Source of the DNA: Thermoplasmatota archaeon
GTDB lineage: Archaea > Thermoplasmatota > Penumbrarchaeia > JASLWR01
Direction of reading: 5' to 3'
Length of the DNA: 64,000 bases
Assembly: GCA_030740765.1 (NCBI GenBank)
Contig: JASLWR010000001.1
Coordinates: 42,961-106,960, forward strand
Made by a program: the position numbers and the translations under genes. Below are positions 18,183 through 31,105 of the stretch, one piece after another (the stretch's first letter is position 1; every line of letters begins with the position of its first letter). Below the pieces are notes generated by a model. The model was not told where the DNA came from, ran no database searches, and saw only the letters and a program-made list of their open reading frames with translations.

Positions 18183-20696
18183 ATGATAAAAATAAACGAT
18201 TACCGCGGGAATGAAAAGTTTGACGAATCCAGTATCCATTACGGTCACGAATATGATGATGAGGACGATCCTTTCATAGAGTATGATGAAGACGAGGAAG
18301 ATAGCGATGATGAACCGGAATATGATGACGACCCCTTTGGGGGACTCGATGACGAGGAAGAAGAGGAGGGGGGCGATGACGAAGGATCAGGGGACGAACC
18401 GGAAGATGACGACGATCCTTTCGGGGGATTCGATGATGATGGGGACGAAGAAGAAGAGAAAAAAGAAGAAGAAGAGGAGGAGGAAGAAGATTCGGTAGAT
18501 TATGACGACGATCCCTTCGGGGGATCCGATGATGATGGGGACGAAGAAGAAGATGAGGACGTGGGAAAGGACGAAGCAGACGAAGAAGAGGACAACGAGG
18601 AGGAGAAAGAAGAGGAAGAGTATGACGACGACCCCTTTGGTGAGCTTGCCGATGGGGGAGAGGAAGATGAGGAAGTGGAGGAAAAGGAGGAGGAGGGGGG
18701 AGAGGAAGAGGAAGAAGAAAAAGAAGAAGAGGAATATCTACCGCCACCTCCGGATGATGAGGAAGAAGAGGAGGCTGAAGACTCCGTGGATTATGACAAA
18801 GAAGAAGGTGAGGAGGAAGGAGAGGAAGAAGATTCGGTAGATTATGACGATGAAGAAGGTGAGGAGGAAGGAGAGGAAGAAGATTCTGTGAATTATGACG
18901 ATGAAGAAGGTGAGGAGGAAGGAGAGGAAGAAGATTCTGTGGATTATGATGACGAAGAGGGAGAGGAAGAAGACTCGGTGGATTATGATGATGATGAAGA
19001 GGAAAAAGATGTCGAAGAAACCGAGATCGAAGGGCCCGAAGCGGACAAGATATATCTGGGAAGAGTTGGAAATAGAAGCGTCCAGCTTCCCGTTGCTACA
19101 TTGAAGAAACATTTGGTTGCCCTAGGCGCTTCCGGTTCCGGAAAGACCGTATTCGGAAAATGTATACTGGAAGAGGCCACGAGAAACGGTATTCCATCAA
19201 TAATAATGGATCCCCAGGGCGACCTGGCCTCCCTGATATTGATATCCAGCGAGGAAGAATGCGAAAAGCACAACATTCCTCTGGAGATACTGGAGCAGTA
19301 CAGGGAAAAGGCCGAAGTGAGGATATTCACACCGGCATCTTCGAGAGGAATTCCATTGTGCATCAATCCCCTAAAGACACTTCCGGCGGATTTTTCACCC
19401 GAGGACGCCATAAAAGCCCTGGACACCATCTCCAACTCCATTGCATCCCTCCTGGGCTACAAGACGGATTCGGATTCCGGGAAAGCCGCAGCGTCCTACC
19501 TCTACCACATCCTTGAAACAGCATGGGGGAGCGGCTTCGAGGTTGAGGACTTCCGCACCCTGGCCAATATAGTGGATAAACCGGAAACCATGGATATCGA
19601 GGATTCCTCGGACATCATAAAGTCGAAGGAACGGGAGAGGCTCGCGCGAAAGCTGAGGCATCTCACAATGGGGATCGAGAAACTTCTTTTCAGCTTTGGA
19701 TTCCCTCTGGACATGGAGGAGCTGCTGACTCCCGTGGAAGAGGGAAAGACCACCGTTAATATCATCTATCTCAATACTCTCTCGTCGGAAGCGCACAAGC
19801 AGTTCTTCATAGCCGTTGTGGGAAACGAGCTGTACAGCTGGATGCTCACGCACCCGTCGAAAGAGGTGCAGGTACTGTTCTACATAGACGAGGTGGCACC
19901 TTACCTGCCCCCCCATCCCTTCAATCCCCCGGCCAAGGGCATCCTGAAACTACTTTTCAAGCAGGCCCGGAAATACGGCGTTTCATGCATGATGTGCACA
20001 CAGAACGCAGCGGATGTGGACTACAAGGCCATGGCCCAGGCCAATACCTGGGCATTGGGAAGGATGATGACGCCCCAGGACCTGAAGAAGGTTGCCGGAA
20101 TGCTGAAATCCATATCGTCAGGCGAGGCTGAGAGCATTCTGAACAGACTGCCCACACTGAAGGCCGGCGAGTTCATACTGGTATGCCCTGACGTTTTCGA
20201 TTCGGCTCAACAAATGAACGTCCGTTGGCTGGTGACCCAACATGAGACACTGGAAGCGGAGGCACTGAAAGAGACACTCCCTGATAATATTCTGGAATAC
20301 TTCGAGAAGAAGTCTAAGAGCATGGCCGCAATAAAGAGAAAGGAGAAGCCTGCACCGGTGGAGGAGAAGGTAGAGGAAAAAGTGGAAGTGTCGAAGGAGA
20401 CAATCGAGCCTCCGAAACAGCGCTGTGCGAAATGCAAGAAACCCTTGAAACCGGGGGCTACCTTCTGTACGAAATGCGGGACCTCGGTGGCCGGTAAGAA
20501 GAAGGAAAAGGCTCAGGTATGCACCAAATGTAAAAAGAAATTGAGACCGGGGGCACTGTTCTGCAATAAATGCGGAACGAAGGTGGGTGCTCCCGAGAAA
20601 AAGCCGCAAAAACCGAAAAGGACCTTCTGCAACAAATGCGGTAATACGTTGAAGCCCGGGGCAAAGTTCTGTACAAAATGCGGGAAGAAGTTTTGA
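18183..20696 (+). CDS. HerA/VirB4-like ATPase with very acidic repetitive N-terminus and three C-terminal zinc ribbons
   Basis: 'LGRVGNRSVQLPVATLKKHLVALGASGSGKTVFGKCILEEA', 'SIIMDPQGDLASL', 'VLFYIDEVAPYLPP'; about 280 aa D/E-rich N-terminus; three 'CAKCKKPLKPGATFCTKCG'-type ribbons. Confidence 0.85.
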   Translation: MIKINDYRGNEKFDESSIHYGHEYDDEDDPFIEYDEDEEDSDDEPEYDDDPFGGLDDEEEEEGGDDEGSGDEPEDDDDPFGGFDDDGDEEEEKKEEEEEEEEDSVDYDDDPFGGSDDDGDEEEDEDVGKDEADEEEDNEEEKEEEEYDDDPFGELADGGEEDEEVEEKEEEGGEEEEEEKEEEEYLPPPPDDEEEEEAEDSVDYDKEEGEEEGEEEDSVDYDDEEGEEEGEEEDSVNYDDEEGEEEGEEEDSVDYDDEEGEEEDSVDYDDDEEEKDVEETEIEGPEADKIYLGRVGNRSVQLPVATLKKHLVALGASGSGKTVFGKCILEEATRNGIPSIIMDPQGDLASLILISSEEECEKHNIPLEILEQYREKAEVRIFTPASSRGIPLCINPLKTLPADFSPEDAIKALDTISNSIASLLGYKTDSDSGKAAASYLYHILETAWGSGFEVEDFRTLANIVDKPETMDIEDSSDIIKSKERERLARKLRHLTMGIEKLLFSFGFPLDMEELLTPVEEGKTTVNIIYLNTLSSEAHKQFFIAVVGNELYSWMLTHPSKEVQVLFYIDEVAPYLPPHPFNPPAKGILKLLFKQARKYGVSCMMCTQNAADVDYKAMAQANTWALGRMMTPQDLKKVAGMLKSISSGEAESILNRLPTLKAGEFILVCPDVFDSAQQMNVRWLVTQHETLEAEALKETLPDNILEYFEKKSKSMAAIKRKEKPAPVEEKVEEKVEVSKETIEPPKQRCAKCKKPLKPGATFCTKCGTSVAGKKKEKAQVCTKCKKKLRPGALFCNKCGTKVGAPEKKPQKPKRTFCNKCGNTLKPGAKFCTKCGKKF
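18778..19000 (+). repeat. In-frame tandem repeat encoding EEDSVDYDDEEGEEEGE
   Basis: Five units, about 51 bp each (last two shortened), of 'gaagattcggtagattatgacgatgaagaaggtgaggaggaaggagag'. Confidence 0.85.
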
Positions 20697-23716: not shown

Positions 23717-24934
23717 CTAGTCGGCCATTGGAACATAACCTTTCAGAGTTTCATTCATACCGTAGAAAACCCGGACCCAGTATTTCGCTCTCATCTCCGG
23801 GTCGTATTCCACCCAGTGAAGTCTCCACTGCTCATGCAAGGTGAACAGGTCATAGAACAAACGGGCAGCCTCCATTGGATCTCGTCCGAGACGGTAGGCA
23901 TTATCACACACCGCCTTTATCTCGGTCCACCGCACCTTTGTGGAATCATCGAGGAACTGGCGAAAGTTCTCTGGCAGCATACCGGCTTCCAGCGGCTCAG
24001 TCTCGAACATCTCTCCCGCGTCGAAGGAGTCGTGAAATTCTTTTAAAGGTGTAGGCAGATAGTCATGGAACATTTTCAACCAACCTTCGCTTCCATCCGG
24101 TATATGCATGTCGCATATCTGTGCAAGTTCGGTCACCTTTTCCCGGTTTCTCCGTATTTCAATCCTCTCCGCGAGGGTCAGTCCCTTGCATGGAATGGAA
24201 TAACCTATGGCCACGTTCTTCGCACACCAGTCGGAGCCCATTCGTTTGATGTATTTTTCCATTATGTGTTTCTGGTGACTGGAGAATGCCAATCTCACGT
24301 CCCGCATGAACAGCGGGTCGGCCCAGAGATCCAGGTCCAGAACCATCATGGGGGAATCAAGCCGTATGTCCTTCGGCCTCAGATGTCCTTCGTATATCTC
24401 GAAGACCTTCTGGTACAGGAATTCCATCAATTTACCCACCGCATCCTGCATCAGGTTATGATCTCTGGGAACGTCGGGGTTCCGCTGGTGGGTGGTCTCG
24501 GTGCATATGCCGCACCCCTTGATAAGCTCGAAGGCCGGCGTCCCCTCCCTGATCTTGCTTGCATAATGATATCCCTGGCCCGTCATTAGTTTCAGATACT
24601 CTATGCCGTAACCGTCCAGTATCTTCTCCATGGCATCACAAAATCCCTCCATTCTCCCGAAGACACCTTTCTCGTCCCTGAAGACCTCGGAGTAATCGAA
24701 AGGATTGTAATATTCGAGGTCAAGCACGATAAGGTAACAACCTTTCTGCCAGACGCTGGTGAAACCGTCCAGATTGTGGTCGAGGAGCCAGTCCAACCGG
24801 GGAGGTCGGACGGATTTGAACGATTGAAAATGATTCTGCTCGAGATATTTTCCGAATCCCACGAGGTATACGGAATCTTCGGTATATTCAAGCATTCTGT
24901 CCTTGAAAGCATCGTCACAATAGTATTCATTCAT
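23717..24934 (-). CDS. Candidate divergent archaeo-eukaryotic primase (AEP) superfamily protein
   Basis: Motif I 'YLIVLDLEYYNP', motif II 'KLMTGQGYHYASK', motif III 'MVLDLDLWADPLFMRDVRLAFSSHQK' in correct order and spacing. Confidence 0.6.
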   Translation of the reverse strand: MNEYYCDDAFKDRMLEYTEDSVYLVGFGKYLEQNHFQSFKSVRPPRLDWLLDHNLDGFTSVWQKGCYLIVLDLEYYNPFDYSEVFRDEKGVFGRMEGFCDAMEKILDGYGIEYLKLMTGQGYHYASKIREGTPAFELIKGCGICTETTHQRNPDVPRDHNLMQDAVGKLMEFLYQKVFEIYEGHLRPKDIRLDSPMMVLDLDLWADPLFMRDVRLAFSSHQKHIMEKYIKRMGSDWCAKNVAIGYSIPCKGLTLAERIEIRRNREKVTELAQICDMHIPDGSEGWLKMFHDYLPTPLKEFHDSFDAGEMFETEPLEAGMLPENFRQFLDDSTKVRWTEIKAVCDNAYRLGRDPMEAARLFYDLFTLHEQWRLHWVEYDPEMRAKYWVRVFYGMNETLKGYVPMAD

Positions 24935-26242: not shown

Positions 26243-26357
26243 TTAATGCTGAAAGTCTGAAACATTAGCAACATCTTCACTCCAATATCTTTCCCCTTTC
26301 CCCTACTTTTACATTTCACTACATAGCTCAATTGCCATACATGAAAAAGTCTCTCCG

Positions 26358-27632
26358 TTATTGTGGGATAATTTTTTCTTCATTGTCGGTTGTAAAATAA
26401 GTTGATGAATGAGATCCACTCCTGTATGGACACTGGAACCATAATTTTCCATCGTGATCTTCTTGAACATTTGTCTTTCCAGCAAAATCAGAGAGATTAG
26501 GACAATAAGTCGTTCCATCTTTTTCTTTTAAACAGTCGATAATATTATCCATACAATCCCTTGATTCCGCATTACAGACTTCAGCCCTAAATTCATTGTC
26601 TATCTCACTACATAACTCAATTGCCATACATGAATAAGCATCTTCATTAAGTGTCTTACTTTGATCACCGATAGTCCAATTTGGTGCTATTAAATGAAAT
26701 CTTAGTCCGATTGTGGATGTTTTATTTTCTTTGCATATATAATCATTATCATCCGTATCTAGTACAAGATCCGCACTGACACTAAACTGACCAGTAGGAC
26801 CTACCTCAGATTTGGTAGGATCATTAAAAGGAATTATTATAGTACCAGATGAAATATTTGAGAAATTAAAATCCAATCCTAACGTGGCTGCTTCTAATCT
26901 CACTTTTCGAAGAAATGCTCTTCTTTGTACTTGTATTAATGGATCACTTACACTAGACTCGTAGTCAGGTTCTTCTTGGTTACACTTTACTTTTTCTATC
27001 GAGACATTTCCACAACAGTGAGCATGAAGTTGTAGGGTCCCAGCACATCCAGTTTGTTTTACAAAACTACCTATGATTGGTTCAACATAATCAGCATTTA
27101 TCCACCACTTTCCCTGAGCAAAAAGGGTATATTTTGTTATTTTTTCCCCATTAGATAGATGAGTTGGGATACAGTATGCTTCATATCTCGCATATACAGG
27201 ACATTTAGTATCATTTCCATAGGGATCGTGAAAATTGTCTGTACACGGATCTCCTGTTTGATCTCTTGCATATGTTGTCTTGTATACTTGTTTTCCCGAA
27301 TCCCCATAACTTCTTCCCAATATTATTTCGGTATTACCAGCGGAATCCTCTCCGGTTATATAAAGATGTTCATAGACTACCCATGGTTCATCAACACCGT
27401 GATCTTTTGCGTCTTCCGATTGTCCTTGTCCGACCCATGTTGGGATTTGTATATCTGGTATTGGTCCCAGGGTTGCATCACTTTCCCAATCTCCTCCCAT
27501 GTCATCTTCCGGTTTTTTTCCACCCCATACTGATCCAGATTCATCAAATGTACTACCTGGCAATTTGCTGGTGTCAATAGTATAGGCCAAGTCTGCTTTT
27601 GTAAGATTTGCTTTTGACATATTCCAAGCCAT
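26358..27632 (-). CDS. Cys-rich hypothetical protein, last gene of the small-paralog operon
   Basis: 424 aa; SD GGTGG upstream; no obvious signal peptide. Confidence 0.7.
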   Translation of the reverse strand: MAWNMSKANLTKADLAYTIDTSKLPGSTFDESGSVWGGKKPEDDMGGDWESDATLGPIPDIQIPTWVGQGQSEDAKDHGVDEPWVVYEHLYITGEDSAGNTEIILGRSYGDSGKQVYKTTYARDQTGDPCTDNFHDPYGNDTKCPVYARYEAYCIPTHLSNGEKITKYTLFAQGKWWINADYVEPIIGSFVKQTGCAGTLQLHAHCCGNVSIEKVKCNQEEPDYESSVSDPLIQVQRRAFLRKVRLEAATLGLDFNFSNISSGTIIIPFNDPTKSEVGPTGQFSVSADLVLDTDDNDYICKENKTSTIGLRFHLIAPNWTIGDQSKTLNEDAYSCMAIELCSEIDNEFRAEVCNAESRDCMDNIIDCLKEKDGTTYCPNLSDFAGKTNVQEDHDGKLWFQCPYRSGSHSSTYFTTDNEEKIIPQ

Positions 27633-27687
27633 AGTTTATACCACCTTTTTCTTAAACTAAATGAAAAATCTGCGATTTTGAGTAATA

Positions 27688-28041
27688 TCAACACACACAA
27701 CATACGTCCCCATAAATCGTCACCTGATACCCACTAGGAACACCGCTTATCACGGAGATTTCGAACTTCACTTCGGAGTTCGCATAGATCGGCTCTTCGA
27801 GGAGATGCTCGACCTTAAAGGATTTGCCTCGCGCTCTTGCGATCACCTTGTCGTCAATGGAAACCTCTGCCTGAATCTCCCAGTTGCAATCGCTATCGAA
27901 ATAAATCGTCAGATTTTTCAACTTGCAGTAGAACGGAACGTGCTGGTGCTTCTCGGTTGTACCTGAATCCAGATAAACATGAAACGAGGTCCGTTTACCT
28001 GAATAGATCTTCTTATCGTTAACAGTAAGAGTGTCACCCAT
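27688..28041 (-). CDS. Small beta-rich protein, family 2 paralog a
   Basis: 'VNDKKIYSGKRTSFHVYLDSG..VPFYCKLKNLTIYFDSDCNWEIQAEVSIDDKVIARARG..EPIYANSEVKFE'; SD GAGGTGA. Confidence 0.8.
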   Translation of the reverse strand: MGDTLTVNDKKIYSGKRTSFHVYLDSGTTEKHQHVPFYCKLKNLTIYFDSDCNWEIQAEVSIDDKVIARARGKSFKVEHLLEEPIYANSEVKFEISVISGVPSGYQVTIYGDVCCVC

Positions 28042-28061
28042 TCATCATCACCTCGGATATC

Positions 28062-28418
28062 TCATGAAATTACTTCCCCATATACCACTGCGTTCCAACT
28101 AACGGCTGCCGCGATCTCGCTGGATTCGAAAGTGATCTTGGAATTCGGGTATATCGGTTCCGTAAGATCGTAGACCACCTTCATGTCTGCACCCCTTGCC
28201 CTGGCCACCAGCTTTCCGTCGATCCTCACCTCGATCTGGACGTTAAAGGCACAGGTGGAATCGAAATATATTGTCAGCTTTTTGAGTGTGCACTTGAAGG
28301 GAACGACCTGATATCTCGGGTTATTCGATGTAGGAGGATCTACGAGATACACGAAGAATGCCGTTCTCTTTCCTGGTTCGATTCTTTTGTCATTTACTGA
28401 GAATTCTGCTTCGGCCAT
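28062..28418 (-). CDS. Small beta-rich protein, family 2 paralog b
   Basis: 'VNDKRIEPGKRTAFFVYLVDP..VPFKCTLKKLTIYFDSTCAFNVQIEVRIDGKLVARARG..EPIYPNSKITFE'. Confidence 0.8.
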   Translation of the reverse strand: MAEAEFSVNDKRIEPGKRTAFFVYLVDPPTSNNPRYQVVPFKCTLKKLTIYFDSTCAFNVQIEVRIDGKLVARARGADMKVVYDLTEPIYPNSKITFESSEIAAAVSWNAVVYGEVIS

Positions 28419-28438
28419 TTTTTATCACCTTTCCTTTA

Positions 28439-28840
28439 TTACTGAATGTCGATGAGTTCTCCTATTATGAGATCCACCGATGTACAGGTGGTGGTAGAGA
28501 GGAATGCGATGAACTTGATGCTCTTCGGCTTTTTGATCGCACCGTTCTCAGTTCGGATCATGCTCCGGATGTCGATAAGGCCAATATCCGCATTGTCCGC
28601 CCCTCCCGTGTTATTGAATCCATAGAGGAGAGCGTTTTCCTTGTTCAGGCGGGTAAGCACGGTGTTGAATAACTGTACCCCGTCTATTTCGATGGCGAAA
28701 TCCAGTACTGTTCCAGGGTCACCGGTGCAGTCTATGAAAATGAATTGAACGTCGTACCCGTCATAGAGTTCCTTTTCAGTATCCACGGATGCGCCTGCAG
28801 GATCGAAATTATCCAGTTGCCTTCTTCTTATTACTTTCAT
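28439..28840 (-). CDS. Small beta-rich protein, family 1 paralog a
   Basis: 'MKVIRRRQLDNF..VLDFAIEIDGVQLFNTVLTRLNKENALLYGFNNTGG'; SD GGAGGT before ATG 28840. Confidence 0.8.
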   Translation of the reverse strand: MKVIRRRQLDNFDPAGASVDTEKELYDGYDVQFIFIDCTGDPGTVLDFAIEIDGVQLFNTVLTRLNKENALLYGFNNTGGADNADIGLIDIRSMIRTENGAIKKPKSIKFIAFLSTTTCTSVDLIIGELIDIQ

Positions 28841-28854
28841 CATCACAACCTCCT

Positions 28855-29226
28855 TCAATAGTTATACTCCTCTGCAACGGTAATGTCGAAATTGTGATCG
28901 GTCTTCTTCACGAAGGTCATTTGCCGGATCCCTCTCGTATTCACCACATCCGTGACGTGTTCGGTCTCGAGGGACAGTACCGCCAACATCGTATTCTCGC
29001 CTCCGACGCCGTCAAAACCGTACCGGATGCCATTTTCCTTGGTCAAGGTCTGGACCGTGGAGTTGATTATCTGTACGCCGTTTATCTTGACCGCAAATTC
29101 TGCAGCTGCAGCCTCTCCTTCGATGATCAGATATTTTACCGGGTGCCCGCCATAGATCTCTATGCTTTCTTCACTCGGACCGGCACTGACCAGTTGCGGG
29201 GTCTGCCTTCTTCGTATATACTTCAT
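28855..29226 (-). CDS. Small beta-rich protein, family 1 paralog b
   Basis: 'MKYIRRRQTPQL..AAEFAVKINGVQIINSTVQTLTKENGIRYGFDGVGG'. Confidence 0.8.
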   Translation of the reverse strand: MKYIRRRQTPQLVSAGPSEESIEIYGGHPVKYLIIEGEAAAAEFAVKINGVQIINSTVQTLTKENGIRYGFDGVGGENTMLAVLSLETEHVTDVVNTRGIRQMTFVKKTDHNFDITVAEEYNY

Positions 29227-29271
29227 ATATTTTTTCCTCCTATCTTTTTGTGGTTTTGATCGAGAATTCTT

Positions 29272-29664
29272 TTACTTTATCTCCCCATATTCAGCTATTA
29301 TTACATCGGTTAAAGTGGCCGTTGTAGTTGCAGTATTGATTCTGAGTTTTACGCTTTTTATTTGTTCGGGTGACACATTCCTAGACATTGTTGTGCTTTT
29401 CAAATCCAGGATCCCTATATTTACGTTCTCATCAGCAGAGGCGTCGAATCCGAACATTAATCCGTTTTCGTAGGTAAGATCTGATAATAAGCCATTGAAG
29501 ACCTGTACCCCATTGATCAATATGGAGAAACCAAGGACCTTGGCTGGATCTTCAAAAGTATCGATGAATATGAATTTTATGTCAGCCCCGTCGTACAATT
29601 CTATATCGTCTACGACAGCGGCGGCAGATGAAATGTGAATTTTTCTTCTCTTTAAAATCTGGAT
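29272..29664 (-). CDS. Small beta-rich protein, family 1 paralog c (apparent ATC start)
   Basis: In-frame extension upstream of the listed TTG gives (I/M)QILKRRKIH.., aligned with MEVLRRKKF/MKVIRRRQL; GGAGGT six nt before ATC at 29664. Confidence 0.65.
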   Translation of the reverse strand: MQILKRRKIHISSAAAVVDDIELYDGADIKFIFIDTFEDPAKVLGFSILINGVQVFNGLLSDLTYENGLMFGFDASADENVNIGILDLKSTTMSRNVSPEQIKSVKLRINTATTTATLTDVIIAEYGEIK

Positions 29665-29678
29665 TTTTTCACCTCCAT

Positions 29679-29865
29679 ATTGTCAATGGTGAAAAGCTCG
29701 ACAATGTCGAGGCCTTTCGAGTAACGCCTCGAAAGGACTGGATGCATTGATGCATCAAAGGTTTTCAGCTTGACAATCCTTGACGACCCTGACGGCTCGT
29801 CTGGCATGACAGGGCGTTACCTGTCATGTTTCGCAGAATCGCAGCCTGGAGGGAGCGATTCTGCT
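29679..29865 (+). repeat. Composite palindromic element H, long copy
   Basis: ATTGTCAATGGTGAAAAGCTCGAC...TTTCAGCTTGACAAT ends; internal hairpins CCTTTCGAG/CTCGAAAGG, GATGCATTGATGCATC, CATGACAGG/CCTGTCATG, GCAGAATCGC/GCGATTCTGC. Confidence 0.75.
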
Positions 29866-29868
29866 GAA

Positions 29869-30258
29869 TCAAACATTTGCCGAATAAACTACTGTTACCG
29901 TAAAGGTATTGGCACCACCCGAGTCCGCCAGTGACACGAATGTTATTTGCATCGGCTCGCTTGATTTCATCGAACCTTTCATGCCTTTAGTTTCAAAAGG
30001 TAATATCGCGTATTTACTGTTAGCTCCACCCGTAGTAGCATCGAATCCTTTCCTAATGCCGTTCTCTCTCGTCAGATTTCGCATGGCGCAATTGATTATC
30101 TCGATACCGTTGACTTCCACGGCGAATTCCGCATCCTCGTCCGTATCTACTGAAATTATCATATATTTCAACGAATTTCCTTTATACGCGTCCAGTCGGA
30201 TATTTAGAGTAATCGATCCCGGGAGCGGTGGAAATTTTTTCCTTCGTAACACTTCCAT
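29869..30258 (-). CDS. Small beta-rich protein, family 1 paralog d
   Basis: 'MEVLRRKKFPPL..DAEFAVEVNGIEIINCAMRNLTRENGIRKGFDATTGG'. Confidence 0.8.
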   Translation of the reverse strand: MEVLRRKKFPPLPGSITLNIRLDAYKGNSLKYMIISVDTDEDAEFAVEVNGIEIINCAMRNLTRENGIRKGFDATTGGANSKYAILPFETKGMKGSMKSSEPMQITFVSLADSGGANTFTVTVVYSANV

Positions 30259-30545
30259 TTATTCCACCTATCTTTGGTGAATTCTCGTTCTATAAATGTA
30301 AAAATGCTTTGTTGAAATACTTTACATCGTTTAAGAGTATGATCAGGACTAGTATATAATGATTATAGATAGTAGTTTTGCAGTAGAAAAGAATCTTTTA
30401 GATCTATCTATTTTCAACAAAAATGCAAATAAGATCATACTATACCAAGCTTCACTTGAAAAGCCGGGTCCCGACATAGAATCAGAGATTCTATTAGGGC
30501 TAATAGAAACAAACGTTTCTATGTCGCCTACTGGCTCGGCTTGAA

Positions 30546-30910
30546 AGGCTTGACCGCACACCTGCGGGCAAGTGAGACGCGTAGGTAAACGCGTCAGCAG
30601 TGACACGTCCGCAGGCATGTCCGTAGGGACGCAGTCCCGAGGATGCAGCAGAGCCTTTGGGTCTGCGCAACGATAGTGGGCACTAGCCGAGGGTGATGGA
30701 GAAACAGAAGTTTCTCCGAACCTAGCAAAATCTTCGATATTGCGTCGGGCGCAGCAACGCCGTAGGCATACCTGCCGAGGACACAGATGAATCTTGATTC
30801 ATCGAGTGCCTGAAAGGTGTTGCGTAACCTGACCGCACACTCGCGGGCAGGGATGGAAACACCCGTAGGGGACATCGTCCCCGAGGATGCAGCATAATCT
30901 TGATTATGCG
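30546..30910 (+). repeat. Array of degenerate structured units (copies C1-C4)
   Basis: GACCGCACA-n-CGGGCA..CCGTAGGGAC-GCA-GTCCCGAGGATGCAGCA and CCGTAGGGGAC-ATC-GTCCCCGAGGATGCAGCA; also GCCGTAGGCATACCTGCCGAGGACACAGATGAATCTTGATTCATC. Confidence 0.7.
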
Positions 30911-31105
30911 TAATATAATGAGCATCTCGGATGTTTCAAGACGAAGTGTGCGCCAACAGGTGTGTCTTTACAGGGCACCTGATCGTATTGAGGCATTTTA
31001 AAGATAGAATATTGTTTTATAATCAAGCAAATTATAAAAAGGATTATCCGCGTATGGGCACTATAAAATTTTATTTTAATTCAGGGATAATCGAGATGGT
31101 ATGTT

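Follow-up and report, generated by a model that had tools for sequence, protein, structure and literature searches.

The window analysed here is a stretch of 64,000 nucleotides from a Thermoplasmatota archaeon (assembly GCA_030740765.1, contig JASLWR010000001.1, positions 42,961 to 106,960), in which positions 26358–30258 hold a cluster of seven genes, all on the minus strand: four of family 1 and two of family 2, both consisting of small paralogous proteins, and g7, encoding a protein of 424 aa. We tentatively read this cluster, at a little short of even confidence, as encoding co-assembling structural subunits of one non-secreted assembly, in which two subfamilies of family 1, A and B, would form an A:B repeating unit. 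The gene set is real, orphan and orderly, is possibly derived from a virus, and may serve a virion, a filament or another cellular complex. The seven co-oriented genes of the original prediction are present as follows.

g1, 29869–30258, minus strand: family 1, subfamily A, open reading frame (ORF) of 129 aa beginning MEVLRRKK, with the Shine-Dalgarno (SD) sequence AGGTGG.
g2, 29272–29664, minus strand: family 1, subfamily B, 130 aa, apparent ATC start, SD GGAGG.
g3, 28855–29226, minus strand: family 1, subfamily A, 123 aa, the reference sequence for the structure model.
g4, 28439–28840, minus strand: family 1, subfamily B, 133 aa, ATG start at 28840.
g5, 28062–28418, minus strand: family 2, 118 aa.
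g6, 27688–28041, minus strand: family 2, 117 aa, with a C-terminal CCVC.
g7, 26358–27632, minus strand: ORF for an acidic protein of 424 aa with 15 Cys.

The paralogy of the four family 1 genes is firm, as all six pairs score at Z 17–37 over 200 shuffles and match one another by blastp at E 1e-11 to 1e-31 with 21–42% identity. Some residues of the core motif quoted earlier for this family vary; the four proteins share 13 invariant columns. The family divides into two subfamilies that alternate along the DNA, A (g1 and g3) and B (g2 and g4): g1 is closest to g3 (37%, E 2e-24) and g2 to g4 (41%, E 4e-31), and the split g1g3|g2g4 is recovered in 1000 of 1000 bootstraps (ultrafast bootstrap 100), with 12 informative sites in its favour vs. 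1 and 1 for the alternative splits. Judged from the sequences, the simplest history would be that one ancestral gene gave rise to A and B and that the A-B pair was then copied. That the A-B-A-B order has been kept suggests that A and B act together, and the duplicated pair fits such joint work. The multi-subunit assembly proposed in the original prediction is thus a reasonable inference, strengthened by the duplicated A-B dicistron, although nothing here shows assembly itself.

Family 2 is likewise a true pair of paralogs, g5 and g6 being 50% identical (E 5e-36, Z 59). Within both families the paralogs share 0.54–0.69 identity at second codon positions, which are the best kept, vs. 0.29–0.38 at third positions, which are saturated; this skew of substitutions towards third positions indicates that g1–g6 are real protein-coding paralogs that diverged long ago, and all of them keep open frames despite the deep divergence. 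Between family 1, family 2 and g7, relatedness was undetected (all Z < 1.5; hhalign probability 0.3% for family 1 vs. family 2), and a single superfamily uniting families 1 and 2 was therefore rejected for want of sequence support.

The proteins of family 1 have masses of 13.7–14.7 kDa. They were modelled with AlphaFold2 using g3 as reference and an alignment of the four window paralogs only, which yielded eight strands and two short helices (predicted local distance difference test, pLDDT, 75; predicted template modelling score 0.69), preceded by an N-terminal extension of 15–20 residues with a conserved [RK]-R-[RK] patch, seen in both model and alignment. With moderate confidence, the predicted core is a compact, eight-stranded single jelly-roll, an assignment that rests on the model and its Foldseek matches rather than on residue-by-residue topology. 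In the PDB, Foldseek placed PRD1 P3, PR772 P3, PM2 P2 and iridovirus capsid proteins at the top (probability 1.00; E 2e-4 to 3e-4 for PRD1 and PM2), followed by SPV1, BMV and CCMV (probability 0.72–0.99), with E 2e-4 to 2e-3 overall. The best match had a template modelling (TM) score of about 0.58, and that to SPV1 was weak (TMq 0.29). Among BFVD models, 40 viral matches had E < 0.001, including capsid proteins of giant viruses, Gluconobacter phage GC1 and Bacillus phage Wip1. The description of all the small proteins as beta-sandwich-like is accordingly supported for family 1, by its moderate model and jelly-roll match, while family 2 offers a strand pattern only: its AlphaFold2 model was poor (pLDDT 49) and its Foldseek matches were of mixed folds with a best E of 2.5e-3, among them carbohydrate-binding module (CBM) and C1q folds, with Ena2A and the exosporium protein ExsFA among the distant ones.

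Co-assembly might proceed as follows. A and B would join in a heteromeric unit, and copies of this unit would tile to give a lattice or oligomer in which the second A-B pair serves as the version for a non-equivalent position; family 2 may supply a second structural element, such as a cap, vertex or linker. The g7 protein, large and rich in Cys, may be a peripheral or binding component. The close spacing of g2–g7 (gaps of about 15–55 nt) and the lack of signal peptides speak for this reading. As originally claimed, no protein of the cluster has a signal peptide (hydropathy over the N-terminal 17 residues at most 0.69, no N-terminal hydrophobic segment); hydropathy revealed no membrane segments either.

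With less confidence, the genes may go back to a jelly-roll virus, as a cassette of virion-structural genes that was captured from it or that it left behind, now chromosomal in one known lineage. Stated in full, this would be a chromosomal, lineage-specific, virus-like shell or filament in which two jelly-roll subunits alternate as A:B pairs and a further family of small proteins, unrelated to them, takes part. Either an archaeon would have recruited single jelly-roll capsid genes to a cellular role, or the cluster would be the structural part of an archaeal virus group that is as yet undescribed and lacks a packaging ATPase; we regard this extended version as rather unlikely. Its nearest parallels are the Portogloboviridae and Helvetiavirae. 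The shell of SPV1 is built of two jelly-roll proteins, VP4 and VP10 (PMC8459092), and Helvetiavirae have two jelly-roll coat proteins that form homo- and heterodimers (PMC8812541). Like SPV1 VP4/VP10 and P23-77 VP16/VP17, the cluster combines a predicted single jelly-roll with more than one structural family per gene set; adjacent A/B paralogs and known archaeal hosts are further likenesses, and no packaging ATPase was recognised, as in SPV1. Since SPV1 is a virus that lacks this enzyme (PMC8812541), the cluster may have a viral origin despite the missing ATPase. In contrast to these viruses, the cluster proteins are smaller, other viral genes were unrecognised, and no sequence similarity to Portogloboviridae or Helvetiavirae capsid proteins was found among phages, PHROGs, PDB sequences or in the IMG/VR scans; the fold matches listed for the family 1 model do not include the P23-77 proteins. 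The best fold matches, PRD1 P3 and PM2 P2, are double jelly-rolls, whereas a family 1 protein would have just one jelly-roll and roughly a third to half of their size.

Several observations weigh against the reading as structural subunits of possibly viral source. The capsid likeness is at the level of fold only (identity 6–17%, TM 0.5–0.6, root-mean-square deviation 4.5–6 Å), comes from a model built from four sequences, and extends in BFVD to small uncharacterised proteins of 108–146 aa from tailed phages and uncultured viruses. Capsids are over-represented in structure libraries, and at 123–133 aa the proteins are small beside the jelly-roll major coat proteins that are known. Jelly-rolls are also widespread in cells, including in carbohydrate-binding proteins (PMC8812541), and with identities this low the matches support a fold, not descent or function. 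Besides many virus coats, the fold is shared by some filaments, by lectins and by accessory proteins of phages. The family 2 structure is unreliable, and g7 is without a reliable one. Neither a viral hallmark gene nor an integrase was recognised near the cluster in library scans that covered some window ORFs, nor was a tRNA target site, and the window contains no tRNA; the cluster is therefore not a recognisable provirus. No secretion gene was recognised beside it either, and these data do not distinguish between the virion, filament, shell or lattice of the original prediction.

The main rival to co-assembly of this kind is a cellular filament or a surface or sheath assembly of jelly-roll subunits that is not derived from a virus and would be held together, as in the endospore appendages (Ena) of Bacillus, by beta-sheet augmentation and an N-terminal connector. 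Ena subunits are jelly-rolls of 12–17 kDa with a 15-residue N-terminal connector, and Ena1A and Ena1B of Bacillus cereus are clustered paralogs with 38% identity (PMC8619143). Family 1 comes close in subunit size, predicted fold, A/B paralogy between clustered, diverged genes and N-terminal extension; Ena2A and ExsFA appear among the distant family 2 matches, and no viral gene was recognised nearby. However, no Cys occurs within residues 1–30 of any of g1–g4, where Ena carries its connector cysteines, there is no detectable similarity to Ena, Ena does not appear among the 50 best matches to the family 1 model, and the quality of the family 2 model is too low for its matches to count. The cluster proteins also lack an export signal, and archaea are not known to form spores. 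We consider this explanation rather unlikely.

The small BFVD proteins of similar length bear on another possibility, a remnant of an integrated tailed virus, in which family 1 would be jelly-roll accessory proteins (head decoration, fibre or baseplate) and g7 a receptor-binding protein. Tailed proviruses are known in archaea, including Thermoplasmatota (PMC11705971), and g7 has both an atypical GC content at third codon positions (GC3) of 0.23 and a partial 3′ duplicate. A weak match of g3 to phrog_10080 (E 0.012) points the same way, but it is borderline and was rejected as a homolog. Opposed to such a remnant, the genes beside the cluster include none recognisable as a terminase, portal, HK97-type capsid, tail tube or integrase gene, phages gave no match in protein or DNA, and the paralogs are all intact, unlike those of a decaying remnant. 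We find this account improbable. We give equally little credence to a soluble cytoplasmic complex for ligand binding or regulation built from lectin- or cupin-like jelly-roll domains: jelly-rolls are widespread in carbohydrate-binding proteins (PMC8812541) and CBM and C1q folds were matched by the poor family 2 model, but the library searches gave no CBM or cupin family match, the cluster is without an enzyme gene, and six paralogs exceed the needs of a binding protein.

The claim that no named family is represented was borne out, as Pfam, NCBIfam, PHROGs and PADLOC gave no accepted match for the cluster proteins; no anti-phage defence model of PADLOC matched. No homolog was found among PDB sequences or by tblastn on phages and plasmids, nor by distant blastn on phages. 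Families 1 and 2 had no relatives in 394 genomes of the phylum by profile search, a method more sensitive than motif scans and confined to that phylum, and none in 59 relatives. Scans of IMG/VR and GTDB, which used short exact motifs that distant relatives would escape, were also negative. For g7 there were no relatives among the 59 genomes, phages and plasmids (tblastn), PDB sequences or in the IMG/VR scan. Two candidates were set aside, one (G012, E 0.00135) whose frame opens with a hydrophobic membrane anchor and one (G210) with three internal stops. A DNA search of g2–g7 for CRISPR spacers across the phylum gave just short, chance-like matches. Within the reach of these tools, every search came back without relatives, which suggests a cluster confined to this lineage.

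SD-like sequences precede every one of the seven genes, in line with the strong sites originally noted. For g2, no in-frame ATG, GTG or TTG lies upstream of the conserved N-terminus; within 29662–29675, the ATC at 29664, just past GGAGG, gives I/M-Q-I-L-K-R-R-K in register with the paralog starts and, from the sequence, could reflect the use of a rare start codon, a mutated start codon or an error in the sequence. The start of g4 is most likely the ATG at 28840 rather than an upstream TTG. Two further features touch the cluster.

Hairpin chain, 29665–29868, minus strand: the gap between g1 and g2, a piece of a genome-dispersed repeat.
Partial duplicate of g7, 26313–26360, minus strand: 48 nt, an 85% copy of 26602–26649.

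The hairpin arrays break up the proposed operon. Whereas g2–g7 are co-oriented and tightly spaced, the 204 nt between g1 and g2 consist of consecutive hairpins (DNA fold z −9.6; none of 200 shuffles as stable) that set g1 apart, so a single seven-gene transcript stays only proposed. About 490 nt upstream of g1 (30440–30930) form a similar chain (z −7.0). With 52 matches in the same genome for the g1/g2 gap and 51 for the gap upstream of g1, all partial, both chains belong to a mosaic repeat spread genome-wide, whose copies have stems in common (e.g. ATAGAATC/GATTCTAT and CCTTTCGAG/CTCGAAAGG) and varying loops, the modules being combined differently at each genomic site. The g2 SD falls inside the last predicted stem before g2. 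No Rfam family was found around the cluster.

The low GC3 of g7 compares with 0.42–0.63 for the other cluster genes and 0.53–0.63 for eight other genes of the window. The duplicate at and behind its stop, in another frame, copies a g7-internal segment and may be left over from a paralog since lost or from an alternative C-terminus.

The window is part of a 171-kb contig of a 3.6-Mb genome (completeness 93.7%, contamination 1.8%), and the nearest genomes in the comparison set share only its class, leaving the lineage without a closer relative there. At 18183–20696 on the plus strand lies a HerA/DUF87 ATPase of 837 aa with a long acidic repeat at its N-terminus and C-terminal zinc ribbons; a PHROG 'terminase' match to this gene was rejected, as it is a HerA/DUF87 zinc-ribbon ATPase. 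The flanking genes include methyltransferases and one alpha/beta hydrolase, and ORF translations read by eye added purine biosynthesis genes, a proteasome subunit and a beta-CASP RNA-processing factor; among the flanking genes, with some window ORFs scanned against libraries, no packaging ATPase, membrane protein, nucleocapsid or integrase was recognised. We read the surroundings as archaeal and cellular in character, or orphan. The minus-strand gene at 23717–24934 encodes an orphan protein of 405 aa, unmatched in the databases and without a relative among 38 other genomes, whose motifs VLDLEYY, TGQGYH and SSHQKH look primase-like by eye; its assignment as an archaeo-eukaryotic primase was unsupported by Pfam, PHROGs and a primase search in the genome itself.

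The duplicated A-B unit leads to a simple, testable prediction, that A and B form a heteromer. For the single jelly-roll coat proteins of archaea, the specific ancestor has yet to be identified (PMC8812541). If the subunits do co-assemble, the cluster would represent a protein shell or filament new to archaea, and one on which the passage of jelly-roll coat proteins between cells and viruses could be tested.

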